Virus record (IMG/VR): IMGVR_UViG_3300030109_002859
Location: 1-64,000 of that record
From: a virus
DNA: 64,000 nt
Reading direction: 5' to 3' (one strand)
Notes under the pieces: model-generated
Database searches by the model: none
The model's input: the letters and a program-made list of their open reading frames with translations, nothing else
What the model was told of the DNA's origin: nothing
Translations under genes and position numbers: made by a program
Part shown: piece after piece, positions 17,620 to 64,000 of the stretch
Layout of the letters: each line of letters begins with the position of its first letter
Position numbering within the stretch: the stretch's first letter is position 1

Positions 17620-18486
17620 ATGCTAAAACTAAAAAAATTACTATTTGAATCCAGCGTTACAGGCCAACAAGCAAATACTGAAAGTCTTGGTGGATTTAAA
17701 GGTTTCTTCAAGTTATCTGAAATAGAAGCTTACAAGAAATGGATAAAGAAAACACTTCGTGTAGAATTAGTTGAAGGATATAAAGACCCAGGTATATTCA
17801 AAGCAGTATTCTTAGCAGGTGGACCAGGTTCAGGTAAAACCTATATAGCAAAAGGATTATTTGGAATACCAGATAAGGTAAATGTATCTCAGACTGGTAT
17901 GAAAATGGTTAATTCAGATAAAGAATTAAAGTATTTACTAAACAAGTTTGGATTCGGAACTGATTTAGATTCATTACCAGATGAAGTATTCCAAAATCTA
18001 ACAGGCGATGGACCAGATTCAAGTGGGTTAAGAAACTTTGCAAAAGATTTGACAGCAGAACGAAGAAGATTATATCAAAACGGAAGACTCGGTATGATTA
18101 TTGACGGAACCGGAGATGATTATCAAAAGATTGCAGGTGAAAAGGCAGAATTAGAAAAAATCGGATATCAAACATATATGATTTTTGTCAACACTACATT
18201 AGAAGTAGCACTACAAAGAAACGAACTCAGAGATAGAGTTCTACCACAGAGTATAGTTTCACAATCACATAAAGAGGTGAATAGAAACATTGGCGCATTT
18301 CAAGGATTGTTTGGTTCAAGTAACTTTATGATTGTTGATAACAATGAACAAAAAACAGAAAACCAAGCAAAGAAAAGATTCAAGATGTTGGTAAAGCAAG
18401 GATTGGGTAAATTCGTAAAAGCACCAATCAAAAGTAAAAAAGCATTAAGTTGGATTAGAAAACAAAAAATATTAAGGGGAAAATAA
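17620..18486 (+). CDS. P-loop kinase (zeta-toxin/AAA-like) with N-terminal capsid-targeting-like peptide
   Basis: 288 residues. A Walker A motif GGPGSGKT lies at residues 67-74 and a hydrophobic strand IIDGTGDD near 163-170 could be Walker B/substrate loop; NTTLEVALQRNELRDR near 190-205 resembles the lid arginines of zeta-toxin-like or polynucleotide-type kinases. The substrate is unknown. The protein begins MLKLKKLLFE, the short amphipathic tag shared with many proteins in this window and ending in an [L/I]xE sequence after which a T4-type prohead protease would cut. It may therefore be an enzyme carried inside the capsid (inference). Confidence 0.65.
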   Translation: MLKLKKLLFESSVTGQQANTESLGGFKGFFKLSEIEAYKKWIKKTLRVELVEGYKDPGIFKAVFLAGGPGSGKTYIAKGLFGIPDKVNVSQTGMKMVNSDKELKYLLNKFGFGTDLDSLPDEVFQNLTGDGPDSSGLRNFAKDLTAERRRLYQNGRLGMIIDGTGDDYQKIAGEKAELEKIGYQTYMIFVNTTLEVALQRNELRDRVLPQSIVSQSHKEVNRNIGAFQGLFGSSNFMIVDNNEQKTENQAKKRFKMLVKQGLGKFVKAPIKSKKALSWIRKQKILRGK

Positions 18487-18968
18487 TGTTAATATCATTT
18501 GACGAAATTATAGAAGTAACTTTACACCACGAGGGTGGATATGTTCACGACCCAAAAGATTTAGGCGGAGAAACTAACTTCGGTATAGCAAAAAGATTTT
18601 ACCCAGACGTAGATATCAAAAACCTTACAGAAGAGAAAGCAACAGATATTTACAGAGCAGATTACTGGGACAAGAATAGAGTAGAGGAACTACCAGAGCA
18701 ATTAAGACATATCTTTTTTGATATGTGTGTTAATCAAGGTAGAGGAACAGCAGTAAAGATTTTACAACGAGCGTGTAATGCAAAGGGAGCAGACTTAGCA
18801 ATAGATGGAGGTTTAGGACCAGGAACTATGAATGCAATAGAAATCTATAAACCTTCAATAGAAAGAGTTCGTTGTTACAGATTAAAATTTTATTACGATT
18901 TAGTAAATAAAAAACCCGAACAGGAACGATTCTTGTTTGGATGGTTTAAACGAGCAATATCAATTTAG
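18486..18968 (+). CDS. Endolysin, GH108-type N-acetylmuramidase
   Basis: 160 residues, normal for the family. The catalytic glutamate is in HHEGGYVHDPKDLGGETNFG (E16), the GH108 signature, and the second half (DGGLGPGTMNAI, ~118-129) is the PG_binding_3-type domain with the conserved G-x-GP-T core. It should cleave the N-acetylmuramic acid linkage of peptidoglycan at lysis. No signal peptide, so export needs a holin; a candidate is encoded far away at 53108. ATG overlaps the upstream stop (TAATG). Confidence 0.88.
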   Translation: MLISFDEIIEVTLHHEGGYVHDPKDLGGETNFGIAKRFYPDVDIKNLTEEKATDIYRADYWDKNRVEELPEQLRHIFFDMCVNQGRGTAVKILQRACNAKGADLAIDGGLGPGTMNAIEIYKPSIERVRCYRLKFYYDLVNKKPEQERFLFGWFKRAISI

Positions 18969-18978
18969 GAGAAATTAA

Positions 18979-19278
18979 ATGGCATTTTCAGATGTAACAA
19001 GAGGACAAGGTTCTTTTGTTAGTAGAACAAAAAAAGCTTTTGATGAAGGACTTCACGCATTCACAAGTGCATACGAAGTATCAGCAAGCACAACTTATGA
19101 ACCAACAAGTTCATTCAAACCAACTGCATTTTACATTCAAGAAGGAACTAATTACACATTATCACCAGTAGGTGGTGGTAGTAATTTAACCAAAGGATTT
19201 GTCACTGGACAAATTTATAGTATTGCATTGAAAAAAGTTGTAACGGTAGCATCAACAAAAGTAATATTGTTAAGGTAA
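18979..19278 (+). CDS. Hypothetical small beta-rich protein
   Basis: 99 residues, starting 10 bases after the endolysin with GGAG at 18969-18972. It is rich in Thr, Ser and Val with a Gly turn (VGGGSNLTKG), so mainly beta. No known motif. A virion accessory protein is possible from its composition and position. Confidence 0.5.
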   Translation: MAFSDVTRGQGSFVSRTKKAFDEGLHAFTSAYEVSASTTYEPTSSFKPTAFYIQEGTNYTLSPVGGGSNLTKGFVTGQIYSIALKKVVTVASTKVILLR

Positions 19279-19634
19279 TGAGTAAAGTATCACAAATCAT
19301 TAGAGAAGCAATCACAGATTTGATTGACGAGGGAACTATCACCCAAGAAGACCTAAGACAATGGTTCAAAAAAGGTGGAGCAGGTGGAACAACCAAAGGT
19401 GGTTGGGACAGATATGGTTCATCAGGACAAAAATTAGGTAAATGCGGTGGTGGAAAAGAAGGTGGTGCTTATGCCGCTTGTTTAAGTGCCGAGAAAGCTC
19501 GTAAACTCGGTCCAGACGGAAGAGCGTCATTTGTTCGTAGAAAGAGAGCAGCGCAGAAAAAAGGTGGTGATGCGAAGAAAGGTAAACAAAGAAGTAAAGG
19601 TAAGAAACCAACATACACAAAGACAGGCGCATAA
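19278..19634 (+). CDS. DUF5872-like basic protein with capsid-targeting-like N-terminus
   Basis: 118 residues. It starts MSKVSQIIREA, whose IRE-A fits the prohead-protease cut consensus. The rest is a Gly/Lys/Arg-rich segment: GGWDRYGSSGQKLGKCGG, YAACLSAEKARKLG and FVRRKRAAQKKGG. This GWDRY...GQKLGKC...CLS...KARKLG order matches what I recall of DUF5872, a domain of unknown function from large viruses. A basic, DNA-associated internal head protein is plausible. Confidence 0.6.
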   Translation: MSKVSQIIREAITDLIDEGTITQEDLRQWFKKGGAGGTTKGGWDRYGSSGQKLGKCGGGKEGGAYAACLSAEKARKLGPDGRASFVRRKRAAQKKGGDAKKGKQRSKGKKPTYTKTGA

Positions 19635-19951: not shown

Positions 19952-19953
19952 AT

Positions 19954-20394
19954 ATGAAGATACAAGAATTTGCAAAACACTTGGACGAACCAAGAGAGAT
20001 TGGTAAAAAGAAAAAAAGATTATCGTCAAGTGAAATGAAAAAATTAAAAAATAAAGCGTTTGAAGTTTACCGAGAGGGTTGGTCAGACAAGTATAAAAAA
20101 AGTATTGATTGTAATAATCCGAAAGGATTTTCACAAAAAGCACATTGTGCAGGACGAAGTAAGAAGGAGACAATAATGAACTTAAAATCATTAGTAAAAG
20201 AAACAATAAAAGAAGTAGTTACAGAAAGAAAATTACAAATGTTCTTTGAAAAGAATGTTCCAACAAATCCATCAAAGTGGTCTTATTATAAGGCACAGGC
20301 AAAGAAAAAGTTTGATGTTTATCCAAGTGCATATGCAAATGGTTGGGCAGCAAAAAAATATAAAGCCGCTGGTGGTAGTTGGAAAAAAGGATAA
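19954..20394 (+). CDS. Putative capsid-internal protein with Cys/basic motifs; second start inside
   Basis: 146 residues from ATG 19954 (the 12 upstream in-frame residues read back over the previous gene). It begins MKIQEFAKHLDE, strikingly like the MKTYQEFIAE capsid-targeting peptide of T4 internal protein III. Residues ~48-60 have CNNPKGFSQKAHCAGR. A second ATG at 20176, preceded by AAGGAG at 20163-20168, would start MNLKSLVKE, another such tag, followed by FDVYPSAYANGWAAKKYK, a motif I know from other large aquatic phages. One polypeptide cut in two, or two nested products, are both possible. Confidence 0.55.
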   Translation: MKIQEFAKHLDEPREIGKKKKRLSSSEMKKLKNKAFEVYREGWSDKYKKSIDCNNPKGFSQKAHCAGRSKKETIMNLKSLVKETIKEVVTERKLQMFFEKNVPTNPSKWSYYKAQAKKKFDVYPSAYANGWAAKKYKAAGGSWKKG

Positions 20395-20398
20395 GACT

Positions 20399-20833
20399 AT
20401 GAATGAAGCAAGAGGAACTTGTTGGGTAGGATACAAACAAGTCGGTATGAAAGACAAGGGTGGTAGAAAAGTCCCTAATTGTGTAAAAGAAGAAATGGAA
20501 ATCTTTTATGAAGTGGATGGAAAAGGACACGGATACACTTTTGAATATCTGAGATTGCCAGAAGATATCAATGAAGCAGAATATCAAGGAAGAAAAGTTA
20601 AACTTGGTAAACCAATGCAAGGTGATGTAAAGAAATTTAAAGTTTATGTTAAGAATCCTGCAGGTAATGTTGTTAAAGTAAATTTTGGACACGGTGGAAC
20701 ATCAGCAAAAGGTAAGACTATGAAAATTAGAAAATCCAACCCTAAAGCTCGTAAATCTTTTAGAGCAAGACACAATTGTGATACACCAGGCCCAAGACAT
20801 AAAGCTCGATACTGGTCTTGTCGCAAATGGTAA
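20399..20833 (+). CDS. Small protein with GTCWVGYKQVGMK and ARHNCDTPGP motifs
   Basis: 144 residues from ATG 20399; the frame is open further upstream but that part overlaps the preceding gene. The N-terminus GTCWVGYKQVGMKDKGG..VPNCVKE and the C-terminus FRARHNCDTPGPRHKARYWSC are two short cysteine-containing modules seen repeatedly in large aquatic phage proteins, with no known function. A DINEAE sequence between them matches the prohead-protease consensus, which would separate the modules (inference). Confidence 0.55.
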   Translation: MNEARGTCWVGYKQVGMKDKGGRKVPNCVKEEMEIFYEVDGKGHGYTFEYLRLPEDINEAEYQGRKVKLGKPMQGDVKKFKVYVKNPAGNVVKVNFGHGGTSAKGKTMKIRKSNPKARKSFRARHNCDTPGPRHKARYWSCRKW

Positions 20834-21192
20834 AATTAAAAAACTTACTGAAAGAAGATTTAAAAATACAATCATCAGGTAAATCTGATGGTTATATCTA
20901 CAATTGGAAAGAAGAAATGAAAGAGGGCAAGTTTGACCCTAAAAATCCTACCGTTGTAGTAAGTGGATTGGGTTCATATAGTTTGGACATACTAAAAAAG
21001 AGTGTTTCATCTCAATTATTAGACTTATCAAAAAGATTAAAGGGTGGTTCTGAAATGGATGTTGATAATGTATATAGTTTATTAATAAAGAACGAGTCAT
21101 TATTATATAAAGTAAAAGCTATAAAAGATGTTCAAGACGAATTAAAAACATCAGTATGGAAACGAAGAATCACAATCTACAAAAGAAAATGA
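20827..21192 (+). CDS. Putative capsid-internal protein
   Basis: 121 residues from ATG 20827, overlapping the previous gene by 7 bases. It begins MVKLKNLLKED, a clear copy of the MxKLKxLLxE tag. The rest is charged, mostly helical and lysine-rich at the end (KRRITIYKRK), without a recognised domain. The tag is the main evidence for a virion location. Confidence 0.5.
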   Translation: MVKLKNLLKEDLKIQSSGKSDGYIYNWKEEMKEGKFDPKNPTVVVSGLGSYSLDILKKSVSSQLLDLSKRLKGGSEMDVDNVYSLLIKNESLLYKVKAIKDVQDELKTSVWKRRITIYKRK

Positions 21193-24100
21193 AAAATAAA
21201 TTAACAGAATGGTTAGTTAAACCACTTATCAATGAAGTAGAATTGCCGATTGAAATTGGTGATGTTGTATTGATGGGTAGGTTTAAAAACAAGAAAGTAA
21301 AAGTTAAGTCAATCACTTACAATGAGAAAGGTGATTTACAAATCAATGGCAGACCTGCACTTAAATTCAGAATACAAAAATCAGATAAAAAGTTATTACC
21401 GACAAAAACTACAAACAAAAAATCAGCAGAACCAGACTCAGATAGAAAAGGTGTTGATGATGAATATCCACATCACAAAACAGAAAATATAAAATATATC
21501 AAAAAGTATCGATACGATATAAGTAAGTTTAGTGATGCGAAAAAAGTCAAACTTGTAGATTTGTTGATAAAAAAATATAAGTTAGTAAAATTAAGAGATT
21601 TTATTGGTGGAAGCTTAAGTCATAATGATATTGAAATATCTCAAAGAGCTCTCTCATCAAAAGCAAAAAAAGATATTGAAAAACGATTTAATCTGAAAAC
21701 AGAAGCAAAAAGAATTCCAAGAAAAAAAGGACAACATAGAGGTTCATCAAGTCATTCAGATTTATACACGGACGAAAATCCAAAAGGAACAATCAAAGGA
21801 TTAAAGTTCGCTACCACAGATGACGCAAAAAAATCAGTAAGTAAAATTAGAAATAGTGGTAAAACCCACGCTCACAAAATACAAGCAGCAGTCGCTATGG
21901 AACAACGAGCAAAAGAAATGGGTAAAACAGCTCAAGCAGGTGTTTATCGTAGTTATATAAATTCTATGAAAAAGAAAACCAAGAAGAAAAATGAATCATT
22001 CTTTGGATTAGGGCCAGGTGACATTCCTTCACCAAGTCGTAAGATGGTTAAGAAAATGAAAAAGAAAGGTAATACATCAGTTCCTTATGGTAGTGGATAT
22101 AAAAAAATTGATGAAAGAGCAAAAGGGGCAGTATCGGGTAGAAAAGTTCACAAAAACATTACAGGATTTAATCTACCATACAAAGGTAAAAAATATAAAG
22201 AAATAGATATGGAAGTTAAAAAAGTCGACAACAAAACAGAAAAAGTTTTGTTAAGAATTTTAACACCTAAAAAATTATTCGGACAACAAGTCGAGGTAAC
22301 ATTTAAAGAACTTCGTAGAGGTCCATTTATGAAAACCGATACGAGTAAAAAAGTAAACGAACAAAAATCGAAGGTTAAAAAAGTAATAGCAATTTATCCA
22401 GGTAGATTTCAACCATTTGGTCCACACCACAAAAAAGTATTTGACGCACTACAAAGTAAGTTTGGTGAAGCATACATCACAACATCAGATATAAAACAAC
22501 CACCAAGACACCCAATGAATTATAATGAAAAAGTTCGTCATATGGTTAAAATGGGAGTTCCAAAGAATCGTATCATTAAAGAAAAAGTTCCTTATGTGGC
22601 AAATAACTTATTGAGAAAATTTAATAAAGATACCACAGCGGTAGTTTATGTATTCGGTGCAAAAGACGCCGGTAGATTAAAAGGTGGTAAAAAGAAATCA
22701 GGTGGATTGACTTACTATCAAGATTTAAAGTCTAATCAAAATAATTTAAAAGGATTTGAAGAACACGGATACATTTATACTGCACCAACGGTAAAAGTTA
22801 GTGGTATATCAAGTGGAACAGAAATTCGTAATCTATTAGGTAGTCCAAAGTTTGACGACAAAAAAAGAGAACAAATATTTAAAAAAACATTTGGTTATTT
22901 TGATAAAGGTGTTTACACTATGATGACTAACAAGTTTAAAAAACTATTTGAATTCTACCAACAACCACAGGTAAAAAAAATTTTAAAGGAAGTTAGTGGT
23001 TTTGGAACAAGTGTAAATGCAAGTGATATGTCAGATGAAGGTATGTATGATTTTTTTGGTTCATTAGATGATTATTTTAGAGTATCAAAAGAACACGCAG
23101 ATGTTATTGGATATGAGTTGATAGGGTTTCCAATCAAAGACTCGGCAGATATGGCATTTACCATTATGGCAGATGACTATGAACAAGATAGAGCAAAAAC
23201 CGTAACATACGGAAAGACAATTAATCAAAATAGAAAAAACACAGAAAGTGTAAAAAACCCATACCCAAAATACAAAGAAAGATTAAATAAAATACTTTCC
23301 AATCTAAATTGGCAAGTAGTTAAGTTTTTTGGTGAAGAGCATGTAGAACCTAAATTATCAGATTCACCATTGATAAAGAAACCAGATGTTGAAAAAGGTA
23401 TCAAACATACGAAAAGTATTCAAGAGAGTTTTCAACAAGATGTTGATTTATTGATAGAAGCAATGTGTGGTGTTGGACAAAACCCAGCAGACACAGGTTG
23501 CACACCAAAAGGTAAAGCAAAAACAAAAGTAAAAATGAAACCATTTGAAATACCAAAATTTAAAGTGCCAAAATTTAACATACCAAAATTTGAAATAGAC
23601 CCAGAAAAAATGAAAAAGGTTGCAGCAAAAAGGAAAAAAAGAAAAGAAAAAGCTTTAGTAAGACCAGATAGAAAACCAAATATGAAAGATGGTGTTGACA
23701 TTATTAGAGATAAAAAAGACACACAACATTTTATTGATGATTTTTTATTTAAAGCAGATAAAGGTGTTGATTTAGATGAACTTACTAAAGAAATGGGCAA
23801 TCAATATCAAGAACAAAAAAAGAAATTATCAAAAAAAGAACAAAAACAATTAGAAACAGATATTGAAAGTTGGAAAAAATATGGCGGGTTTGAAGCGATT
23901 CAAAATGCTATTGAGGACGGAGACACAACAGAACAAGAAATCCGAAATAGAAATGAAAGAATAAGTGATTTGGCCCACAAGACCACTAACAATATTGATA
24001 AAGCTATTGAACGAGGTATAGAAGTTCCTAATGATGTTGCAAATGCAATATTAAACGAATTTAAAATTGGAGAAATGGTTGAAATACCAGATGAATCTGG

Positions 24101-25730
24101 ACACGGTTCAAGTGGTTTTAGTTTAAGTGGTGAAACAGCAAGAGAATTCTCAAGAGTTGATGGTGATGGCGATAAAACATCAATTTTGTTTAGAATAGAA
24201 CCAAATTCAAAAGGACAACTTAGAGGTTTATATATTGACGGAGATGAATCAAGCACTATATCAAGAGAAAGGGAAATAACTCGTAGTTCTAAGTCAAAAG
24301 CAAAAGTGATATCAGTAGAAACTAAAAAATTACCAAATGGTAAAGAAGTTAAAATAATCACGTTACAAGAACCAGACGATTTAACAGAAACAATAATCAA
24401 AGAAGTAAGTAAAAAATATAGTGAAATATCAAGAAGATATTTAGAAGGTCCATTAAATCCAAGATTAAAAAAGAAAGAATTACAAAAAGAACATCTTATA
24501 TTAGAGGGTGGAGCATACGGGCATATGAATCATCCATTTGATGATAATAATTTGACGTTTTCAGACTTGAAGAACATAATTATTATAGGGTTAAGTGGAA
24601 ACCTTAATCGTGAAGATAAGGTATCTGAAAAACTTGACGGACAAAACCTAATGATAAGTTGGGTTGGTGGACAATTAAAAGCAGCCCGAAACAAAGGTCA
24701 TCTGAAAAATGGTGGTAAAACTGCACCAACTACCGCAGGTATCGCTAATATGTTTAGTGGTAGAGGTAATATTAAAAAAGCATTTGTAGGTGCGATGAGA
24801 GATTTAGAAAAATCAATAGGTGGTTTATCTAATGCACAAAAGAAAAAGATTTTTGGTAATGGAACCAAATGGATGAATTTAGAGGTTATATATCCACAAA
24901 CAGCAAATATTATTGACTATGATGTCGCAGAGATTGTATTCCACGGAACTACCGAATACGATAGAACAGGTAGAGCAAAGGGATACTCAAAAGAATCAGC
25001 TCGTATGTTACAAGGTATGATTAAACAAGTAAATCAAAATATACAAAAAACATTTAAAATTAGTAAACCTAATTTCTTAAAGACGAGTAAAGTTCAAAAC
25101 TATGGAGCAAAGAAAAATTCTTTCTTAGGTAAATTGAATAAATTACAAGGACAATATGGATTGAAAGATACTGATAAATTAGGTGTGTATCATCAGTCTT
25201 TCTGGCAAGAATACATTTTTAATGCAGTAAAACAATTCAACACATCTATAACCCAAAGTCAATTAGTAAATCTAACTAATCGTTGGGCATTTTTTGATAA
25301 GTCATATAGTATAGGACAAATTAAAAAAGACTTTAAAGATAGTCCAAAGTTTGTTGATTGGATTTTAAAAACTGATAAACTTGACCATAACAAAATGTTC
25401 AAACAAAACATTAAACCATTTGAAGTATTGTTCTTTCAAGTCGGAGCAGAAATATTAAAAAATATGTCAGGTTTCTTAGCAGTATCACCAGACGCAGCAG
25501 TCAAAAAAATTAAACAAGATGTTGATAAAGCGTTGAGAGATTTACAAAAACCAGACAATGTTAGTAAATTAGAAAAATTAAAGATACAAATAGAGAAATT
25601 AGAAGCTATTGGTGGTTCAAGTGCAATTGTACCGAGTGAAGGCTTGGTATTTAAATACAAAGGTAATATATACAAGTTCACAGGAGCATTTGCACCAATC
25701 AACCAAATATTAGGTAGTTTAAGATTTTAA
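21189..25730 (+). CDS. Giant multidomain protein: nucleotidylyltransferase + ADP-ribosyltransferase-like + ligase-like domains
   Basis: 1,513 residues from ATG 21189 (ATGA overlap with the previous stop). It begins MKNKLTEWLVKPLINE, a tag-like start. Residues ~398-545: IYPGRFQPFGPHHKKV and SGISSGTEIR, the (H/x)xxH and ISSTxIR motifs of NMN/cytidylyltransferases. Residues ~780-800: tandem PKF repeats. Residues ~940-1040: ERGIEVP, SGFSLSGETAREFS, ILFRIE and ISREREITR, the R / S-x-S / ExE order of ADP-ribosyltransferases. Residues ~1103-1513: EKLDGQN (KxDG lysine, ~1146), NLEVIYP (~1229), EGLVFKYKG (~1483), the motif I, III and IV order of ATP-dependent RNA/DNA ligases. [L/I/V]xE sequences (KKVNE-Q, KILKE-V, LILE-G) lie at domain borders. 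All activities are inferred from motifs. Confidence 0.7.
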   Translation: MKNKLTEWLVKPLINEVELPIEIGDVVLMGRFKNKKVKVKSITYNEKGDLQINGRPALKFRIQKSDKKLLPTKTTNKKSAEPDSDRKGVDDEYPHHKTENIKYIKKYRYDISKFSDAKKVKLVDLLIKKYKLVKLRDFIGGSLSHNDIEISQRALSSKAKKDIEKRFNLKTEAKRIPRKKGQHRGSSSHSDLYTDENPKGTIKGLKFATTDDAKKSVSKIRNSGKTHAHKIQAAVAMEQRAKEMGKTAQAGVYRSYINSMKKKTKKKNESFFGLGPGDIPSPSRKMVKKMKKKGNTSVPYGSGYKKIDERAKGAVSGRKVHKNITGFNLPYKGKKYKEIDMEVKKVDNKTEKVLLRILTPKKLFGQQVEVTFKELRRGPFMKTDTSKKVNEQKSKVKKVIAIYPGRFQPFGPHHKKVFDALQSKFGEAYITTSDIKQPPRHPMNYNEKVRHMVKMGVPKNRIIKEKVPYVANNLLRKFNKDTTAVVYVFGAKDAGRLKGGKKKSGGLTYYQDLKSNQNNLKGFEEHGYIYTAPTVKVSGISSGTEIRNLLGSPKFDDKKREQIFKKTFGYFDKGVYTMMTNKFKKLFEFYQQPQVKKILKEVSGFGTSVNASDMSDEGMYDFFGSLDDYFRVSKEHADVIGYELIGFPIKDSADMAFTIMADDYEQDRAKTVTYGKTINQNRKNTESVKNPYPKYKERLNKILSNLNWQVVKFFGEEHVEPKLSDSPLIKKPDVEKGIKHTKSIQESFQQDVDLLIEAMCGVGQNPADTGCTPKGKAKTKVKMKPFEIPKFKVPKFNIPKFEIDPEKMKKVAAKRKKRKEKALVRPDRKPNMKDGVDIIRDKKDTQHFIDDFLFKADKGVDLDELTKEMGNQYQEQKKKLSKKEQKQLETDIESWKKYGGFEAIQNAIEDGDTTEQEIRNRNERISDLAHKTTNNIDKAIERGIEVPNDVANAILNEFKIGEMVEIPDESGHGSSGFSLSGETAREFSRVDGDGDKTSILFRIEPNSKGQLRGLYIDGDESSTISREREITRSSKSKAKVISVETKKLPNGKEVKIITLQEPDDLTETIIKEVSKKYSEISRRYLEGPLNPRLKKKELQKEHLILEGGAYGHMNHPFDDNNLTFSDLKNIIIIGLSGNLNREDKVSEKLDGQNLMISWVGGQLKAARNKGHLKNGGKTAPTTAGIANMFSGRGNIKKAFVGAMRDLEKSIGGLSNAQKKKIFGNGTKWMNLEVIYPQTANIIDYDVAEIVFHGTTEYDRTGRAKGYSKESARMLQGMIKQVNQNIQKTFKISKPNFLKTSKVQNYGAKKNSFLGKLNKLQGQYGLKDTDKLGVYHQSFWQEYIFNAVKQFNTSITQSQLVNLTNRWAFFDKSYSIGQIKKDFKDSPKFVDWILKTDKLDHNKMFKQNIKPFEVLFFQVGAEILKNMSGFLAVSPDAAVKKIKQDVDKALRDLQKPDNVSKLEKLKIQIEKLEAIGGSSAIVPSEGLVFKYKGNIYKFTGAFAPINQILGSLRF

Positions 25731-30519: not shown

Positions 30520-31398
30520 ATGTCTTTATATGTTAAACATAACAAGATAAAGAATACTTCTATTCTTTATGAACTTTTATCTCGTCAAATTACAGTTGAC
30601 GTGTTAAATGACACAAAAAGCCCTAAATCAGTTAAAATATTTAAAGAATTCTTTAATAAAAATACTGAATTAGGTAAAGAATACGAATTATATTCAATTT
30701 TGTTAGAAAAAAAATACAAAAGCGATTCACACGCTAGTCAATTAGTCGAAGCAGTTGTTAAGAGTCGTAGAAAGTTATCTAATCGTAGATTAAATAATGA
30801 AAAATACAATTTAATTAAAACTATAAAAGAAAATTACGATATAAAAGAGTTTTTTAATACTCGTATCCCTAATTTTAAAATTATGGCTTCAATTTATAAA
30901 GTATTCGGAACGGAAACTGGTAAAGAAGACTTCGGTCCAGTTCAAAAAACTGATTCAGTTATCACTATAACTGAACATATCGTTCACCACACTACTAAAG
31001 TAGATAGAAAATCTCAGATAATAGAAGAGTTTGGGGAACAAGAAAAAGATTTAAGGTTATTAAGTTATCAATTGTTAGTTGATAAATTTAATTCAAAATA
31101 TAAATCTCTTAATGAAAATCAAAAGAACTTATTGAAAGAATATATCAATAATGTGTCTAATACAAATTCATTAAAAGGTTTCATAGACAATGAAGTAGTT
31201 AAAATCAAAAAAGCTCTAAAGGCATTACTACCTAAAGTCAATGATGATATTACAAAAATCAAACTAACAGAAGCTATCAGTCATACTGATACAGCAGTAA
31301 AGGGAAGTGTTGTGAAAGATAAACACGTGGTTGCTTTGATGAGATATTATGAATTGATAAAGGAGTTAAAGAATGTCCAAGTCCGACAAGATAGCTAA
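30520..31398 (+). CDS. Conserved head-region protein between portal and prohead protease
   Basis: 292 residues, helical and basic. No domain recognised. In T4 the small core proteins gp67 and gp68 occupy this position between genes 20 and 21, and aquatic T4-like phages have a larger conserved gene here, so a prohead core role is inferred from position only. It overlaps the next gene by 26 bases. Confidence 0.55.
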   Translation: MSLYVKHNKIKNTSILYELLSRQITVDVLNDTKSPKSVKIFKEFFNKNTELGKEYELYSILLEKKYKSDSHASQLVEAVVKSRRKLSNRRLNNEKYNLIKTIKENYDIKEFFNTRIPNFKIMASIYKVFGTETGKEDFGPVQKTDSVITITEHIVHHTTKVDRKSQIIEEFGEQEKDLRLLSYQLLVDKFNSKYKSLNENQKNLLKEYINNVSNTNSLKGFIDNEVVKIKKALKALLPKVNDDITKIKLTEAISHTDTAVKGSVVKDKHVVALMRYYELIKELKNVQVRQDS

Positions 31399-32302
31399 AC
31401 TAAAAGAATACATTAAAAATTTAGTTGTTCAAGAATTAAAAAAAGATGAAGAACTTGATGAAGTATCTACAACTGCAACTGCCGGTATAGACGGAACAGG
31501 AACAGGACATTACGATACACCAAGAGCATTCGCTAGTGGTTCAAGCGCATCAAAAGGTGGACATCCAAAGCCAGATGTTATGGGATATAAAAAAGTAAAC
31601 GAAGGTTATGGTGAAATGATGGACGAACTTGAAAAAATATATAGACCATCAGGCGCACCACCAATTGCAAAAGAAGCATTAAAAGATTTAGCAGACGAAT
31701 ATGATATCGGTAGAGTATTATATGCAGCGAGAACAAACGAGAAATCATTTAGGGAAGTTTTGGATATGAAAATAGACCAACTTCAATCTCAATATGTAAA
31801 TAAAAAACATATCAATACTATCAAACGAGGTAAAAAATTAAGAGAAGCTACTAAACAAGAAGTCAATGCATTAAAAAAATTCATAAGAGATTTTGATAAA
31901 ATGCAAAAACAATATTGGAACATCGCTAAAATGGGTGACAAAGAATTGACAAATACAAAATACAATAAACATTACGAAACTATTTTAGCAGCTCAAAAAT
32001 CAATCGTTCAACTTGCAAGAGAAATACAAAATAAACAAATGATGGGTGAAGGTTTAAACGAAGGTCGTTACCACGATTGGAGAAACGACGAATCAATGAC
32101 ACCAAAACAAAAAGTTGGTCGTTCAATGAGAGAAATTAGAGACGCATTAAACGAATTAGACAAAACCGTAAAGATGAATCTTAAATTAAAAACAGAATTA
32201 AATATGAAGTCAGAAGACTATTGGAAAAACACACATAAAGCATTAACAAAAATTTCAGAAAGATTAGTTAAGATGGCGAATAAAATAGGAAATTTAAAAT
32301 GA
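31373..32302 (+). CDS. Putative prohead core/internal protein with VNE and LNE linkers
   Basis: 309 residues; AAGGAG at 31360-31365 supports ATG 31373. The N-terminal helix MSKSDKIAKLKEYIKNLVVQE is tag-like. Next comes a Gly/Ser/Thr-rich STTATAGIDGTGTGHYDTPRAFA (~31-53), a low-complexity motif seen in aquatic T4-like phages. Two further sequences, KKVNE-GYGE (~76) and EGLNE-GRYHDW (~226), match the prohead-protease consensus and split the protein into three blocks. It sits immediately before the protease gene. Confidence 0.55.
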   Translation: MSKSDKIAKLKEYIKNLVVQELKKDEELDEVSTTATAGIDGTGTGHYDTPRAFASGSSASKGGHPKPDVMGYKKVNEGYGEMMDELEKIYRPSGAPPIAKEALKDLADEYDIGRVLYAARTNEKSFREVLDMKIDQLQSQYVNKKHINTIKRGKKLREATKQEVNALKKFIRDFDKMQKQYWNIAKMGDKELTNTKYNKHYETILAAQKSIVQLAREIQNKQMMGEGLNEGRYHDWRNDESMTPKQKVGRSMREIRDALNELDKTVKMNLKLKTELNMKSEDYWKNTHKALTKISERLVKMANKIGNLK

Positions 32303-32913
32303 AACAAGTTATTGTAGATTATATACCATTCAGTATAACACCACAACAGATTACTGAAGCGATGAAAGAAAACAACGGAAAGTTAGTTGTTAAAGGTGTA
32401 TTACAAAGAGCAGAAGCAAAAAATCAAAACGGAAGAGTGTATCCAAGAGATGTGTTAGTTCGTGAGTCAAAAAAGTATGACCAAAATTTTGTAAAACAAA
32501 ACAGAGCACTCGGAGAACTTGACCATCCAGATTCGTCAGTAGTGAATTTAGCAAATGTATCTCATAACATTACAGAAATGCATTTTGAAGGTGATAATTT
32601 ATTAGGAACAGTTGAAATACTAACGACACCAAGTGGAAACATTTTAAAAGAATTATTCCAAAACGGAATTAAATTAGGTATCAGTTCAAGAGGATTAGGT
32701 AGTGTTGAAATGGTTCAAGAAGCCAACGGAGACCAAGTAACTAAAGTAGGAGATGACTTTGAGTTAATCGCATTTGACTTTGTATCAAATCCATCAACAC
32801 ACGGAGCATTTTTATATCCGATGAACGAGTCAGTAGAAAAACAGCAAGGTAGAACTTGTGGTGATTATTGTAAAGCAGAAGATATAATTAACCATATTAT
32901 AAGGGGTGAATAA
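32299..32913 (+). CDS. gp21: Prohead core protease (gp21-like)
   Basis: 204 residues, close to T4 gp21 (212). The herpesvirus/T4-type serine protease residues are visible: GELDHPD with H76 and LGISSRGLGS with the nucleophile serine at 129-130. The NQNGRVYPRDVL segment (~42-54) is typical. The enzyme digests the scaffold and trims capsid and internal proteins, in T4 after Glu in [L/I]xE. The many such sequences in neighbouring proteins fit that specificity. Confidence 0.92.
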   Translation: MKQVIVDYIPFSITPQQITEAMKENNGKLVVKGVLQRAEAKNQNGRVYPRDVLVRESKKYDQNFVKQNRALGELDHPDSSVVNLANVSHNITEMHFEGDNLLGTVEILTTPSGNILKELFQNGIKLGISSRGLGSVEMVQEANGDQVTKVGDDFELIAFDFVSNPSTHGAFLYPMNESVEKQQGRTCGDYCKAEDIINHIIRGE

Positions 32914-33668
32914 TGAAGGATTTAAAAATATTATCAGAAATGACAACAAGATTTGGAAATCGTAATATCAACGAATTGGATTTTAAAACTTCAGCAGAGT
33001 TTGCGGCATACAAGAAAAAGCACAAAATGAGACCAGGCACGGTTGTTAAAGTAGCCGGTAAAGATAAAGTTGTTGACGCACCAAAGGGTAAAAAGGGTAA
33101 AGCAAGTGGTGTAGAGTTCTCTACTTTCGGTAAAAAAGATATCAAAAGATTTGCGGATAGATATGGTGTAGAAGTTAAAAACATTAGAAGTGGTCAACAA
33201 GGTAACTTAGCAGACTTTGAAGGAGACCCTGAAAAAATTAAAAAGATGTTAACAAGCACACAGTATGGAATGGAGCCAGAAGACGCTAATGATTTACTTG
33301 GAATCAAAGATAAACCAAAAGTAGACAAGAAAACAGATAAAGAAATGTCATCAGCTGCAGACAAAGCAAATATGAAAATGGATAGAGATGAAATTATGGG
33401 TGTGTTAAATGCTAAAAACGAACCTTTTGCAGAAGAAGTTTACGATATTCTTGATGATAAATTTAAAAAGATGGGTTCACTTGGTAAAGAACTTAAACAA
33501 AAAGTAGACACATTAGCATCATATGAATCGGGTATTTATGATATGAGTGAAAAAGAATATGAACAAGGAAGAAAAGAAATAAAGAAAAAACTTGGTGATT
33601 ATTATAAAAAAGAATTAGATGAAGGCATAGAAGAATTATCTAAAATCAAAACAAGATACAATAGATAA
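32913..33668 (+). CDS. Putative capsid-internal protein
   Basis: 251 residues. It begins MKDLKILSEM, with a second candidate cut at NINE-L (~22). A lysine-rich block VVKVAGKDKVVDAPKGKKGKA... follows, then an alpha/beta part (GVEFSTFGKKDIKRFADRYG) and a helical C-terminus. No known domain. ATG overlaps the protease stop (TAATG), so synthesis is coupled to the protease. Confidence 0.5.
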   Translation: MKDLKILSEMTTRFGNRNINELDFKTSAEFAAYKKKHKMRPGTVVKVAGKDKVVDAPKGKKGKASGVEFSTFGKKDIKRFADRYGVEVKNIRSGQQGNLADFEGDPEKIKKMLTSTQYGMEPEDANDLLGIKDKPKVDKKTDKEMSSAADKANMKMDRDEIMGVLNAKNEPFAEEVYDILDDKFKKMGSLGKELKQKVDTLASYESGIYDMSEKEYEQGRKEIKKKLGDYYKKELDEGIEELSKIKTRYNR

Positions 33669-35290
33669 TGCCAGCACTTAGTAAAAAGCAACAAAAATTT
33701 ATGGGGATTGTTAGGTCAATCCAAAAAGGTGAACAACCAGCATCTAAGTTTACTAAAAAGGCACAAGATGTAGCCAAGGATATGGAAAAGAAAAGTGTGA
33801 AGAAATTCGCATCAACTAAGCACAAGGGACTACCTATGAAAAAAGAACAGCAATATGGAACAGGTGATATCGTTAAGGATGTCAATCCTACTTGTCCACA
33901 CTACGGCGCTATGGGTAAAGTCAAAAAAGTAAAACCAAATTCAGTTGTGTTTGTTGTGAAGAACAAAGGTGATAACTTTGAACCAGGTCAAGAATTAGAA
34001 AAATCACACGACCAAATGAAAAAAGTAAACGAGATGTCAGCAAAATCTAAAAAGATTATCAACAAACTAAACAAAAAAGAAAAGGATATGTTTATGGATA
34101 TGGTTGATATGATGGGGTTTGACCAGGTAATGGCAGACTACAAAAGAGATAAGAAAGCATTTAAACAAGCATTAAAGGATATGACTGAAAATGTCAATGA
34201 GTCAGTAATCAAAGAACGTGTTGGCGCACAACAATTCAATAAAAATTTTGAAATGGCTATGAACTTACTCATCAAACAAGCAAATAACTTAAAAGGTTCA
34301 TTAGCCAAACATCCAATCAAACAAAATGTCAATAAATTAAAAGCATTCCTAAAACTATACAAAAAATTTATAGCACCATCAGTTGTGGAAAAAGATAGAA
34401 GTTTAGACCAAGACTTTGACTTTACTGAAATAAAAAAGAAGTTAGCAGACGGAAAATTTAAATCTACACTTGAATATTCTATTATGAGTAAACTTGGTGG
34501 AAGTAGTTATCGTAGCAATTCATTCTACTTCTTAGATGACAAAGAACAGAAATTATTAGACAGGATATATGGTGGGTTAAGAAAGATAGTAAATGTTATG
34601 GACAAAGCACAATTAGAAAACATCAACGAAGACGGACACACAGATGTCGCATCATCAAAAAGAAAAGTAATGATTATGGTTCAAGATTCAAATAAACTAT
34701 TGAATAAACTAAACGGAATGAACAAAGAAGATTCATTACCGAGTTGGTGGACAGATAAAATAACTTTATCACAGAATTATTTAGCAAAAGCAACAGACTA
34801 CATAACTAATCCAGTTGAATCAGTAAATGAAGCAAGTGTATCACAAGTTCGTTCAACTTTATCAAGAGTTAAAAAACAATTGATGAAAAAATGGGCTAAA
34901 AAAGGTGGATACGAAAACTTTGGTCAAAAAGAACTTCGTGCATTAAAAAGTAAGTTTAAAGAAAATCCTTATGGTAGTCCACAAGAAAGACAGATTTCAA
35001 AGATGTTAGATGCATTTGATAATTGGGCTATGAATTATAGTGGTGATATGAAAGAATCAGTAAATGAAGGTAAGGGTGTAGAAAAAGTCTTAAAAATGGC
35101 AAATGACCAATCATTTGGAAAACTCGGTGGTAGAACCGTAGACGCTTTAAGTGCAGGTTTATTTAAAGGAGTGTATGATAAAGCACCACAAAACGCAAAA
35201 GATAAAATTAACAAAATGAACGAAAAACAATTATATGTATTTATGACTAAATTGTGGAGTAAGTTTGGTAATCAAGTTAGGATAGGTTAA
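33668..35290 (+). CDS. Internal polyprotein: DUF3008-like start plus repeated VNE-linked domains
   Basis: 540 residues. Residues 1-57 (MPALSKKQQKFMGIV... to ...KHKGLPMKKE) resemble the small DUF3008 family. Four short linkers then divide the rest: KKVNE-M (~120), ENVNE-S (~178), ENINE-D (~320) and ESVNE-A / ESVNE-G (~389, ~462). The block after residue 321 (HTDVASSKRKV...LPSWWTDKITLSQNYL) is a helical module I know from other aquatic phage head-region proteins. The linkers fit the gp21 consensus, so the product is probably cut into several internal peptides. Confidence 0.55.
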   Translation: MPALSKKQQKFMGIVRSIQKGEQPASKFTKKAQDVAKDMEKKSVKKFASTKHKGLPMKKEQQYGTGDIVKDVNPTCPHYGAMGKVKKVKPNSVVFVVKNKGDNFEPGQELEKSHDQMKKVNEMSAKSKKIINKLNKKEKDMFMDMVDMMGFDQVMADYKRDKKAFKQALKDMTENVNESVIKERVGAQQFNKNFEMAMNLLIKQANNLKGSLAKHPIKQNVNKLKAFLKLYKKFIAPSVVEKDRSLDQDFDFTEIKKKLADGKFKSTLEYSIMSKLGGSSYRSNSFYFLDDKEQKLLDRIYGGLRKIVNVMDKAQLENINEDGHTDVASSKRKVMIMVQDSNKLLNKLNGMNKEDSLPSWWTDKITLSQNYLAKATDYITNPVESVNEASVSQVRSTLSRVKKQLMKKWAKKGGYENFGQKELRALKSKFKENPYGSPQERQISKMLDAFDNWAMNYSGDMKESVNEGKGVEKVLKMANDQSFGKLGGRTVDALSAGLFKGVYDKAPQNAKDKINKMNEKQLYVFMTKLWSKFGNQVRIG

Positions 35291-35680
35291 ATGGATAAAA
35301 AAACTATAAAAGATATGAACGCCAAATGGAAAGACTTTCGTTTAACAGAACGAACAGCAAAACACGGATTTGATTTAGCAGGTTTTAAACCAGGCGGATA
35401 TAAAAAAGTATTAAAGGCATTAGGTATTCCTATGAAATCAAAGATTGGTAAACCTGACAAAGGATTTCAATGGAAAGGTCGTAACATTTTAATCGTGACA
35501 GGTAATGACCCAATCACAGGAAAGTTTCGTAATCCAGAAAATCGTGACCCGGAAAGAAATTACGCATCCTATATTGGAATTGAGGGGGATGAGAAGAAAG
35601 TAGAACAGGCAGTAAAGTTGATAAAACAAAATCTTCAATACTACAAAGAAGAATCAAAAGGTAAAAGGGACTTTATATAA
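35291..35680 (+). CDS. Hypothetical small head-region protein
   Basis: 129 residues beginning one base after the polyprotein stop. Residues 1-21 end in FRLTE-R, a possible protease site. The remainder is a small alpha/beta domain (FQWKGRNILIVTGNDPITG, then a helix EKKVEQAVKLIKQNL). Not recognised. The site and location suggest an internal virion protein. Confidence 0.45.
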   Translation: MDKKTIKDMNAKWKDFRLTERTAKHGFDLAGFKPGGYKKVLKALGIPMKSKIGKPDKGFQWKGRNILIVTGNDPITGKFRNPENRDPERNYASYIGIEGDEKKVEQAVKLIKQNLQYYKEESKGKRDFI

Positions 35681-36738
35681 TGATTAAGATTAAAAGTATC
35701 ATAAGAGAACACTCAATTATAATGACTGAAGCATTTTCATCAGGTAAACTTCGTGTGTTAGCAAATGATTGGAGAGGTTTAGATTCAGACTTTTGGAATT
35801 ATGGAGCAAAACTTGGTGTTCAATGGGATAAAATTACAGATAAAGAAATAGAAACCAATACTAAACCAAAGAAAAAAGGTATTGAGATTGCATATGTGGA
35901 TAAAGATGTTACGGTGCCGGGTAAAGGTCGTGAAACAAGATACTCTCGTAATTATGATTTCGGTATAGATAAATTTACAGCAATTACAGTATTGAAAGAC
36001 GGAAAACCACTTTGGTATACAAAAAGTTGGAAACCATTAACCAATGTAATGACCGCAACAGGTAAAAGAACCACAGGAAATCGTTATGGTGGTAGAAGAA
36101 GTAATGTGCCAGATGTGGACGCAGGTTCAAAAAGTTATTCAAGAGGTAAACAATTCGGTGCAAACATTTATGGGTATCAATCATTAGGAGCAATAATGAA
36201 AATACCAGGTATTAAATTTCACCACATTAATTTAGAAGAAGACCAACCTTATATGGGCGCTGGAATCAAACGACAAATGAGACAAGCAGCTCAATTCGGA
36301 GCAGCAAAGTTCACAACTAATGATGAATTCAAAAGAATTAATGACCAATACTTTGATGAATTGTTAAGACAAAGACTTAACGACCCTAAAAAATTAGACA
36401 AAAAAGTTAAACAAGCAGCTAACTTTTGTCAATCAATTATTGATTCAGCGCTTGGTGGTAAGAAAGCAACAGGTAAAGTTAAAAGTTTTATTGATAAATA
36501 TCAATCTAATAGAACCGCAAAGACTGGTGAATCAGAAGCATATCAGTTAGCAGCAACCGTAGGTTCACAATTAAATCGTTTATATGAATACTATGGATAT
36601 TACTTGGGTTCAATTCAAAAAGAAAAAGAAGACAAAATTAAATACGGAACAACAGACTTTACCAGAAGTGATACTGAGGGATATGCAAAAGATGTTCAAA
36701 GTAAATACAATACAATTATGACGATGAATTTTAGATAA
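35680..36738 (+). CDS. Putative capsid-internal protein
   Basis: 352 residues starting MIKIKSIIREHSIIMTEAF, with two consecutive candidate cut sites (IRE-H and MTE-A). The body has an alpha/beta first half with a KDGKPLWYTKSWKPLT segment and a helical second half. No enzyme motif seen. Overlaps of one base (TAATG) on both sides tie it to the surrounding set. Confidence 0.5.
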   Translation: MIKIKSIIREHSIIMTEAFSSGKLRVLANDWRGLDSDFWNYGAKLGVQWDKITDKEIETNTKPKKKGIEIAYVDKDVTVPGKGRETRYSRNYDFGIDKFTAITVLKDGKPLWYTKSWKPLTNVMTATGKRTTGNRYGGRRSNVPDVDAGSKSYSRGKQFGANIYGYQSLGAIMKIPGIKFHHINLEEDQPYMGAGIKRQMRQAAQFGAAKFTTNDEFKRINDQYFDELLRQRLNDPKKLDKKVKQAANFCQSIIDSALGGKKATGKVKSFIDKYQSNRTAKTGESEAYQLAATVGSQLNRLYEYYGYYLGSIQKEKEDKIKYGTTDFTRSDTEGYAKDVQSKYNTIMTMNFR

Positions 36739-61364: not shown

Positions 61365-62618
61365 ATGATTATAGTAAATACAAATACACTATTCAATCAA
61401 CTCAAACAATACATACAGAATAAACCATTTGTATTATTACAAATGTATTCCGATGTTAATGCACATCCACAAGAGAATCGTGTAAGTTGTTATTATGTTG
61501 ATTTTCAAGACGAACAATATATTGTTCCGATTCATCATACAGAAAAATATCAAGACGACTTCGAAATTATACAAACTGAGCAAACTATCTTTGTTCAAGA
61601 CTTAAAACAATACAAACACAATACTTTGGTAATCAGTAAAGATGTTCGTGATATGAATTGGTCATATTATTTACAACACAATAAATCATATGATATTGAA
61701 CAACACTTGACTTCTGCACATCATCACTATAATAGATTATATTACAACAACAAAAACACTAATGATTTGATTCCATTGGTAAAACATGCGGAATACTTAA
61801 AACCAATATCGAAAGCATTATACGAATCATATGAACAACAAGACCAAACAATATTAGATAACTTACACAAAATAGAAAAAAATGGATTGAGAACCTATGA
61901 AAAAATAGTATATTCAGAGTATAATCCTTACACATCAACAGGTCGTCCAAGTAATCGTTTTGGTGGTATGAACTTTGCAGCACTAAATAAATCAGACGGA
62001 AGTAGAAAACAATTCATCAGTAGATTTAACAATGGGGTATTAGTCGATATGGACTTTGATGCGTATCACTTACGATTAATTGGTGAAATCATAGGATATA
62101 AGTTTCCAAAAGGTTCAGTCCACGAACATATGGCAGAACTATATGGATTACCTTATGATGAGGCGAAAGCCCTATCATTTAAGTATTTGTATGGTGGAAT
62201 TTCAGACGAGGTATCAGATAATCCATTCTTTTCGAAAGTAAATGATTACATTAAGTTGCTTTGGCAGGACTACAAAACTAACAATTTTGTTAAATCTTAT
62301 ATTTATAATAGAACGATATATAAGAAAAATCTACAAGATATGAATCCAAATAAATTGTTCAATTATATGATACAATTAATGGAAACAGAAAACAATATCA
62401 AGATTTTGAATGAATTACAACCCAAGTTAGAAAACTATGAAAGTAAGTTAGTGTTGTATAATTATGATTCATTTTTATTCGACTTCGATACGAAAGACGG
62501 ATTAGAATTCTTAAATATGGTAAAAGAAACAATAGAGAGTGGTGGAAAATATCCAGTTAAAATTAGTAAAGGGGTAAACTATCACGATATGCAAGACATA
62601 ACGGAGAAATTTAAATGA
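61365..62618 (+). CDS. Compact family A DNA polymerase-like protein
   Basis: 417 residues. Palm and fingers motifs of family A polymerases are present: motif A VDMDFDAYHLRLIGEI (~227-242, equivalent to DYSQIELR), motif B DEAKALSFKYLYGG (~264-277, equivalent to K-x3-F-G-x2-YG) and motif C LYNYDSFLFDF (~363-373), where the usual HDE is YDS. NPYTSTGRPSNRFGGMNFAALNK (~187-209) is the primer-grip-side TGR...NLQN region. No 3'-5' exonuclease or 5' nuclease domain fits in the first 180 residues. It may be a specialised or virion-associated polymerase. Confidence 0.65.
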   Translation: MIIVNTNTLFNQLKQYIQNKPFVLLQMYSDVNAHPQENRVSCYYVDFQDEQYIVPIHHTEKYQDDFEIIQTEQTIFVQDLKQYKHNTLVISKDVRDMNWSYYLQHNKSYDIEQHLTSAHHHYNRLYYNNKNTNDLIPLVKHAEYLKPISKALYESYEQQDQTILDNLHKIEKNGLRTYEKIVYSEYNPYTSTGRPSNRFGGMNFAALNKSDGSRKQFISRFNNGVLVDMDFDAYHLRLIGEIIGYKFPKGSVHEHMAELYGLPYDEAKALSFKYLYGGISDEVSDNPFFSKVNDYIKLLWQDYKTNNFVKSYIYNRTIYKKNLQDMNPNKLFNYMIQLMETENNIKILNELQPKLENYESKLVLYNYDSFLFDFDTKDGLEFLNMVKETIESGGKYPVKISKGVNYHDMQDITEKFK

Positions 62619-62848
62619 AAAAACTATCAGACATAGTTATGGAGTTGGGTAAAGTTCAAACAGATAAAGACAACCCACCTTTTAAAACACCACAACAAAT
62701 TCAAAAAGAAAAAATAGCAAATCCAACCGTACAAAAAATAGATTTTAGAAAACCTACTGTGGTTCATTTGTCAAGAAAAGAATTAGAAATATTATATACC
62801 ACAGGTAGAATCGAAACAGACGGAATAACAGTCATTTATGAGCAATAA
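62615..62848 (+). CDS. Hypothetical small protein with tag-like start
   Basis: 77 residues starting MKKLSDIVMELGK, a possible but weaker copy of the capsid-targeting-like peptide (VME). The C-terminus KIDFRKPTVVHLSRKELEILYTTGRIETDGITVIY is a small ordered domain. It overlaps the polymerase gene by 4 bases and the next gene by 11. Confidence 0.5.
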   Translation: MKKLSDIVMELGKVQTDKDNPPFKTPQQIQKEKIANPTVQKIDFRKPTVVHLSRKELEILYTTGRIETDGITVIYEQ

Positions 62849-64000
62849 TTTTGACAAAATACTCAACGAGTTAAGTTATAAAGTTTCTTCTGGCATTCCA
62901 GATTTAACTAACGAACAACACTTAATGAAATTATGGGAAATTTTAAAAGAACATAATTGGAATATTGATGCGCGAGTAGAATTACTAAAAAATCTACAAG
63001 AAAAAGTCGGTAAAGTATACATTCAAAAAGGTAAAGGGCCAAGTGGTGTAAAACTACAAGTTGGACCCCGAGGTGGTAAATATTATATGGGTAATCCTAA
63101 AACAGGTGAACCAGCGCCCCAAGCAAAAGTAGACGAACCTGAAGTCTCAACAAAACAAACCAACACAGCAAAAGCATATCTTTCAAAATTAGACATAGAG
63201 ATACCAAAAGATATGACTGACAAACAAATCGTTAGTGCTACAAAAAGTGAATTTGAAAGAAGAAATTTTTTAAGTGATACAGTAGACCTGATGATAGAAG
63301 AGCTTAAGCAAACTAAAACTGGTGCAGGTGCTAGAGAAATGACAAAAGAACAATGGGGACAACTCAAAGATTTTGCTGAAGGTAATGGGCCAAAAATTCC
63401 ACAATATGAAGTTACTGAACAAGATATAGATGATGCTATTGATTTAATTAAATCTAGTGGTAAAAAGAAAGTTATGAGTTTTTTACAAACTAAAGGGGCA
63501 GCTGACCCAGATTCGATAAGAAAAGGAACTGAAGAAAATCCAGGTCCAGGTTGGAACAGAGATAGAAAAATGATAAAGTCATATTTGGCTTGTGGTGGTT
63601 TAAGCGCGGTAACGGGAAAACCTTTATCAATAGGGACATCAAATGTAGACCACAGACTATCACTTGATAATGGTGGTAAAGATGAACCTGAGAATTGGAT
63701 ATGGATGGAAACTGAAATGAATATGAATAAGTCATCTCTAACTGATGAACAATTAGTAGAGAGAGCAAAGAAAGCTCTATCAGCGACTGATGATGAAATA
63801 AAGAAAAAGCAAATGAAATCTTTTATCAAAAATGAATCTAAAAAGTTTGTCACAGAACACTACAAACAATTATTTGAAATAGGTGGAAATGGTGGAATTA
63901 CAGAGGATGACCTTAAAGCTATGGATGTTAAAGAGTTAAAGGGTATTACTTATGGTTGGAATAAAGTATATCCAAAGACGAGTGATTCATACATACAAAC
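62838..64000 (+). CDS. HNH-domain protein, putative capsid-internal (3' partial)
   Basis: 387 residues are visible from ATG 62838 with no stop before the window ends. It begins MSNNFDKILNELSYKV; the LNE at 9-11 fits the tag. Residues ~55-95 include a VGPRGGKYYMGNPKTGEP motif. An HNH/McrA-type nuclease core follows at ~250-300: LACGGLSAVTGKPL, SNVDHRLSLDNGGKDEPENW and NMNK, giving the D-H...N...N metal site with a single cysteine upstream. Function as a nuclease is inferred from this motif. Confidence 0.6.
   Translation, partial: MSNNFDKILNELSYKVSSGIPDLTNEQHLMKLWEILKEHNWNIDARVELLKNLQEKVGKVYIQKGKGPSGVKLQVGPRGGKYYMGNPKTGEPAPQAKVDEPEVSTKQTNTAKAYLSKLDIEIPKDMTDKQIVSATKSEFERRNFLSDTVDLMIEELKQTKTGAGAREMTKEQWGQLKDFAEGNGPKIPQYEVTEQDIDDAIDLIKSSGKKKVMSFLQTKGAADPDSIRKGTEENPGPGWNRDRKMIKSYLACGGLSAVTGKPLSIGTSNVDHRLSLDNGGKDEPENWIWMETEMNMNKSSLTDEQLVERAKKALSATDDEIKKKQMKSFIKNESKKFVTEHYKQLFEIGGNGGITEDDLKAMDVKELKGITYGWNKVYPKTSDSYIQ

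Follow-up and report, generated by a model that had tools for sequence, protein, structure and literature searches.

In bacteriophage T4, a capsid targeting sequence (CTS) directs proteins into the core of the prohead, and the prohead protease gp21 cuts after L/I-x-E; in the internal protein IPIII, residues 4 and 7 serve targeting and residues 8 and 10 processing (PMC9026906). The T4 internal proteins (IPs) and Alt are packaged and injected (PMC9026906, PMC9391042), and the idea that a CTS enables T4-like phages to package various proteins has already been published (PMC9026906). Our analysis of a 64 kb stretch of DNA (the window) out of the 65,884-base IMG/VR record IMGVR_UViG_3300030109_002859, which belongs to a T4-like myovirus, points to an elaborated form of the T4 targeting sequence: the window very probably encodes a modular, gp21-processed prohead cargo-loading system, in which exchangeable modules ending in [LIV]xE are joined to unrelated cargo proteins. 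We file this reading as a variant of the T4 internal-protein system.

As in T4 IPI-IPIII and Alt, we find an amphipathic peptide of 10 residues at the N-terminus, hydrophobic at positions 4, 7 and 8 and with Glu at position 10, a gp21-type protease, an ADP-ribosyltransferase (ART) among the cargo and the same type of site in the major capsid protein (MCP). Unlike T4, with its few single-domain cargo proteins, the system described here has many cargo families and no fewer than five types of module; proteins of up to 1513 amino acids contain sites in their interior, and cargo is exchanged exactly at the site. The giant phages phiKZ and SPN3US are also similar in that a Glu-directed relative of gp21 removes the propeptides of head-internal (inner-body and ejection) proteins, but their motif is S/A-x-E, their propeptides are long and the papers examined report no exchangeable set of short tags for them. 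Polyvalent proteins (Iyer et al. 2017, PMC5512222) likewise are mosaic, multi-domain proteins that combine ARTs with other enzymes and are thought to travel with the DNA; by contrast, the available sections of that paper describe neither a capsid targeting tag nor prohead-protease sites at domain borders, and they state that Alt-family ARTs are absent from genuine polyvalent proteins. Finally, the enzymes known from cyanophage virions (nicotinamide mononucleotide adenylyltransferase (NMNAT), APH/ChoK kinase and S-adenosylmethionine (SAM) hydrolase of S-CREM2, S-SCSM1 and others) are of the same types and tagged, although the available sections of the corresponding papers say nothing of a targeting tag and allow that the enzymes might have co-purified. 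Searches of the available literature gave no prior account of a CTS in cyanophages or of DUF3008, nor did the literature examined hold any account of cargo exchange at protease sites.

The original prediction had listed fourteen peptides ending in [L/I/V]xE at protein starts of the window. All of them are found in the sequence at their positions, with the qualification that FRLTE ends at residue 20 of its protein and does not lie at the start, and that MNLKSLVKE (ATG at 20176) lies in frame inside the open reading frame (ORF) 19954-20394. As a defining motif, [LIV]xE is too loose: ending at residues 7-16 of the protein, it occurs in 19 of 69 genes against ~10 expected, a weak signal of only about twice expectation, and it was dropped as a test by itself. 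The stricter amphipathic pattern phi-x-x-phi-phi-x-E is present in 9 of the 69 genes against ~0.5 expected (shuffle maximum 4 in 5000). The spacing of IPIII residues 4, 7, 8 and 10, as mapped by mutation and set as a rule independently of the window, is matched by 7 of the 69 against 0.12 expected (maximum 3 in 20,000 shuffles); this T4-type peptide, whose Glu lies near position 10, is exact in these seven genes and found in nine with a one-residue shift. The 23 genes before 17.6 kb (positions 1-17467), apparently devoted to sugar and surface-polysaccharide metabolism, served as an internal negative set: the strict tag occurs in none of them, and 0/23 match the phi-x-x-phi-phi-x-E pattern, which is slightly looser than the T4 spacing. 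Among relatives, the tag is found on 6.2% of the ATGs preceded by a Shine-Dalgarno (SD) sequence versus 0.93% of other ATGs, and tags are still present in homologs at only 30-35% identity. Those listed peptides that fail the strict pattern, at 32913 (LSEMTTRFGNRNINE), 21189 (KLTEWLVKPLINE) and 62838 (a module of ~55 residues ending KNLQE), represent other recurring module types.

The N-terminal tags are part of a larger modular system, with several tag types, exchanged cassettes and internal sites, the last of which the original prediction, concerned with N-termini only, had overlooked. In a survey of 80 relatives around gp21 and further sets from IMG/VR, five or more types of tag or module, each with [L/I/V]xE at its end, were found ahead of ~48 cargo clusters. 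Type A is MIKLKxxLxE, whereas type B, M-LKELSKITTRYTNR[LI][ND]E, occurs also at C-termini and between domains; a third type, KLTEWLVKPFL, is carried by the 1513-residue protein and by kinases; the fourth, of 55 residues ending VELLKNL[DNQ]E, stands on unrelated cargo; and longer modules, among them those of the DUF3008 protein and GYKKVNE, form a fifth group. LSKITTRYTNRLDE is one module of this set, beside the MIKLKNILNE tag and the 55-residue module. In relatives, the 55-residue module shows 87% identity before the site versus 22% on average over the next 60 amino acids. Conversely, one and the same cargo follows different modules: that of the 36738 family stands behind KNILNE, FESVNE and SNRVDE, and that of 32913 follows either the type B end NINE or KNLNE, from the 55-residue module. 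The P-loop kinase at 17620..18486 (zeta-toxin/AAA_33-like by Pfam; this and all features below written with ".." are on the plus strand) begins with the tag MLKLKKLLFE↓, the arrow marking the site behind the Glu, and has a second site, ELVE↓, at residue 52, directly before its core GYKDPGIFKA; in 29/29 homologs the core comes directly after [LIVFM]xE, behind unrelated upstream parts of 8 to ~115 residues; HTVC008M reads MIPFILKE↓G and Melnitz MKTFAELQE↓G. Judged from these sequences, the tag is a module that can be detached from its protein and that unrelated proteins have in common. An all-against-all comparison placed 22.3% of the distinct homology ends precisely at [LIV]xE versus a background of 2.8%, an 8-fold enrichment. 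KESVNE, KITTRY and KMIKLK ranked among the top entries of an unbiased scan for short peptides common to proteins whose downstream parts are otherwise unrelated.

A putative polyprotein of 1513 amino acids (21189..25730) begins with KLTEWLVKPLINE↓ and consists of modules split by [LIV]xE sites, in the order tag, modules, NMNAT-like domain, linker, ART cassette and ligase-like domain. The NMNAT/cytidylyltransferase-like module (22362..22991; PF01467, 24.8 bits, cut-off 21) follows KKVNE↓, and in Mel-JY01 the same domain stands behind an N-terminal tag, MGKLINILLSE↓. The ART cassette (23460..24506), which ends in HLILE↓, is inserted exactly at DLLIE↓: the alignment shows that relatives without it read DxLLIE↓GGAYGHM, and those with it, L109 among others, read like the window DLLIE↓AMCGVGQ...HLILE↓GGAYGHM, with 349 residues for the cassette in the window. 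All 50 of the PDB matches listed for its predicted structure are ADP-ribosyltransferases (best E=1.2e-7), and R185, S217/S218 and E270/E272 are invariant in our alignment (A1), which supports, from a low-confidence model, an ART fold with R-S-ExE residues. The ligase-like nucleotidyltransferase domain (GGAYGHMNHPFDD; 24507..25727) has the motifs KLDG, RNKG and SEGLVFK; in each of the distinct upstream contexts that were readable, it follows LLIE, FLTE, ILQE, LILE or a similar sequence. Its KxDG and EGxVxK-type motifs are invariant across 24 sequences; the comparison with Pfam RNA_ligase reached only E=0.1 and its model (pLDDT 52, too poor to use) gave no fold match; we consider it a putative ligase on the basis of its motifs. 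Residues 175-271 of the 1513-residue protein, near 22 kb of the window, have 72-74% identity to small hypothetical proteins of P-TIM68, Bellamy and S-SM2; shared in this way with Synechococcus and Prochlorococcus phages, they imply that cargo modules cross host groups. One relative carries MIDFINEIVNEILEENTIKNIVVIYGGRFQPFHSGH at the start of L298, near a gene of the 19278 family; this NMNAT-like protein has several sites that resemble tags.

The published virion proteome of cyanophage S-CREM2, available with coordinates (PMC10665884), links such tags to virions. Five of the six S-CREM2 genes that fit the T4 spacing encode virion proteins detected by mass spectrometry (MS), and the association between tag and detection is significant over all genes (Fisher p = 0.003) as well as among non-structural genes (2e-4). 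The detected tagged proteins are gp6, a SAM hydrolase (MKDFDSFLEE), gp13 (MKDLHSFLTE), the kinase gp14 (MKRFDAFLTE), the NMNAT-like cytidylyltransferase gp154 (MKNFSSFLTE) and gp136 (MQTFSMFFSE); gp12, annotated as Cas9-like and also detected, reads ..RFASFMAE↓AA at residue 25. The NMNAT that MS detected in S-SCSM1 virions begins MKSFLQFLKE↓AA (PMC9602691), and ORF93 of that phage, flagged as a virion protein, has a DUF3008-type N-terminus (MPAVSKAQQRFMGMVHAVKKGD) that also opens the protein encoded at 33668 of the window. The tags of NMNAT-like enzymes resemble that of T4 IPIII, MKTYQEFIAE↓A, not only in S-CREM2 (MKNFSSFLTE↓A) and S-SCSM1 (MKSFLQFLKE↓A) but also in P-SSM3 (MKKFSAFLKE↓A) and MC09 (MKGFSNFLIE↓A). 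The two MS lists fit, and support, a cargo-loading reading.

Capsid targeting and cleavage by gp21, as the original prediction proposed from a motif too loose by itself, are the best explanation for the T4 spacing, for the conserved [LI]xE with swapped upstream parts and for the finding of tagged homologs or analogs among the virion proteins of two cyanophages. A gp21-like prohead protease gene (S77; 32299..32913) lies among the tagged genes (PF03420, E=2e-29; PHROG head maturation protease, 1.6e-53) and presumably encodes the processing enzyme. The MCP (39929..41575; PHROG 2.3e-73) carries QLIQE↓A, a site of the maturation type, at residue 63, kept as QLI[QD]E↓[A/S]S in 15/15 relatives read and as QLISE↓A in Mel-JY01, so that the L/I-x-E specificity, read from the sequences of the group's own MCPs, is of T4 type (QLI[QDS]E↓A/S). 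An acidic scaffold-like core protein with many [LIV]xE sites (38697..39917), proposed from its composition and its location between gp21 and MCP, is the candidate docking partner; Pfam and PHROG profile searches gave no match for it. We propose that exchangeable N-terminal, sometimes internal or C-terminal, modules, each ending in a P3-P1 site [LIV]-x-E, would bind the scaffold core during prohead assembly. After prohead closure, the gp21-like protease would cut behind the Glu, releasing the cargo from its module, and the same cleavage would split multi-domain proteins into separate parts. The cargo (kinase, NMNAT-like, ART, ligase-like, possible HNH nuclease and small basic proteins) would remain in the head with the genome and, by analogy with T4, enter the host at infection and act early there, while recombination at module/cargo boundaries would bring in new cargo.

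Several observations weigh against this proposal. In the available sections of their papers, the authors of the S-CREM2 (PMC10665884) and S-SCSM1 (PMC9602691) studies allow for co-purified proteins in the MS lists, so the virion evidence is supportive and not final. Most of the virion-detected unassigned proteins of S-CREM2 are without the strict tag, and some close enzyme relatives lack the signal (the NMNAT of HTVC008M, MKTLKELLRK, and jumbo SP27). The AlphaFold models are of low confidence for both the ART cassette (50.6) and the ligase-like domain. In addition, [LIV]xE is frequent in Glu-rich proteins, and cutting is therefore not required at every internal site.

The tagged proteins might instead be head components (core or minor capsid proteins) which, like T4 gp67 and gp68, undergo cleavage and for the most part leave the head, and not effectors. 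Some of them indeed resemble core proteins, for example the 37310 protein with its 11 sites, and T4 core proteins are fragmented and exit the head (PMC9026906); however, the kinase, NMNAT-like, ART and SAM hydrolase proteins are enzymes whose cores are intact between sites, and T4 Alt and IPs stay and are injected (PMC9026906, PMC9391042), which makes general expulsion unlikely. It seems more improbable still that the shared peptides are DNA-level recombination seams, or flexible acidic linkers without protease function, in front of ordinary late cytoplasmic proteins. KESVNE-like repeats do sit exactly at homology breakpoints, as expected of mosaic recombination anywhere, but the seam sequences vary (LLIE, FLTE, ILQE, LILE, NINE, VNE, LDE) and only [LIV]xE, the T4 gp21 motif, is constant; control motifs at homology ends ([^LIVMFYW]xE, [LIV]xK, [LIV]xD and others) reach 0.5 to 1.07 times background, without enrichment, and tagged enzymes are detected by MS in S-CREM2 and S-SCSM1 virions. 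That the N-terminal peptides arose by chance from AT-rich starts coding for many Lys, Leu and Glu, as the mere doubling of loose [LIV]xE would allow, is very unlikely given the strict-spacing count, its lack of counterparts in the 23 upstream genes, the difference between SD-preceded and other ATGs and the conservation of tags at low identity.

Beyond the window, a wider version of the cargo-loading proposal appears reasonably likely: in a broad group of T4-like phages, prohead-protease sites would serve as universal junctions at which docking modules and dozens of cassettes recombine precisely at [LIV]xE, and polyproteins would be cut in the capsid into injected effectors, including an NAD and nucleic-acid set (NMNAT-like, ADP-ribosyltransferase, ligase-like and kinase). 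If true, the first effectors injected by a T4-like phage could be read from sequence by locating the tag or seam and then the cargo, turning many unannotated late phage proteins into testable candidates for anti-defence or host takeover. It would also account for the recurrence, among cyanophage virion proteins, of NMNAT-like enzymes, kinases and SAM hydrolase and offer natural capsid-loading tags for engineering laboratory phages.

The remaining tagged or module-bearing genes of the window are as follows. The tag MSKVSQIIRE↓ precedes a small basic protein (EDLR.WFGKG...KCGGGKEGGAYAACL; 19278..19634), most homologs of which have [ILV]xE right before DLRxWFGKG behind differing upstream parts, with T or M at P3 in some. 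The ORF 19954..20394 begins with the module MKIQEFAKHLDE↓PREIGKKK, followed by the ATG at 20176 and MNLKSLVKE↓ before a DUF5872-like cargo that in relatives stands behind KSLVKE, KENVNE and SEMIKE; an SD-like AAGGAG upstream of this ATG, together with the shared frame, leaves two possibilities for 20176: a second start within the ORF, or a site inside a single protein. MVKLKNLLKE↓ is carried by a 121-residue protein (20827..21192) that has a homolog with MIKLKELINE at 43% identity and no match in the phage collection. Around gp21, the protein encoded directly upstream (31373..32302) has the seam GYKKVNE↓ at residue 77, followed by differing cargo in relatives, and that at 32913..33668 has the type B module LSEMTTRFGNRNINE↓ at its N-terminus and a partial type B module, LSKIKTRYNR, at its C-terminus. 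The DUF3008 module (PF11450, 1.1e-5) opens a protein (33668..35290) with segments split by VNE↓/INE↓ sites at residues 122, 178, 321, 388 and 467. The next protein (35291..35680) has a module ending WKDFRLTE↓ at residue 20, with FRL[TNQ]E conserved among homologs. MIKIKSIIRE↓ (35680..36738; second site IMTE↓AF) is kept in homologs at 30-35% identity, others having LKELSxIKTRYG instead. Further tags are MIKLKNILNE↓ (36738..37280), MAKLKDLVKE↓ on the core-like protein of 213 amino acids (37310..37951; its 11 sites are [LIVF]xE), MKLKDLLSE↓ (37951..38310) and MKKLSDIVME↓ on a 77-residue protein (62615..62848).

The ~55-residue N-terminal module MSNNFDKILNELSY...VELLKNLQE↓ (62838..64000) precedes a cargo with an HNH/endonuclease VII-like part, in an ORF that runs beyond the window to a full length of 455 amino acids. 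Of the enzymes named in the original prediction, the kinase and the ART are supported, the ligase was recognized by motifs only and the HNH/endonuclease VII assignment is weak (PHROG E=5e-4). In one member of the 62838 family (L246), the cargo behind the 55-residue module holds a CPICEAMCKHGETSKKTGCIPASGP stretch similar to the CGVGQNPADTGCTPKG start of the ART cassette, possibly a shared cargo leader. Pfam named few families among 46 cargo representatives, so most cargo is of unknown function.

Other landmarks of the window are the terminase (26992), the portal (28583) and tail genes. A GH108 endolysin gene (18486-18968) lies within the tagged cluster and has no T4-spaced tag. The closest isolate found is the Microcystis phage Mel-JY01, with 54% identity in gp21. 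Its protein adjoining gp21 (L002:22429-23595) begins MYEYVEYILE↓K and has no Pfam match; on visual inspection, its C-terminal part (IVYRAVSP..KSYVSTTL..ESEIILPR) resembles an ART, and the protein may be a counterpart of Alt. The window also has an untagged gene for ribosomal protein bS21 (38332-38532; PF01165, 2e-12), placed between its tagged genes and its scaffold gene, and Mel-JY01 likewise has a bS21 gene beside gp21 (L002:22183-22410).

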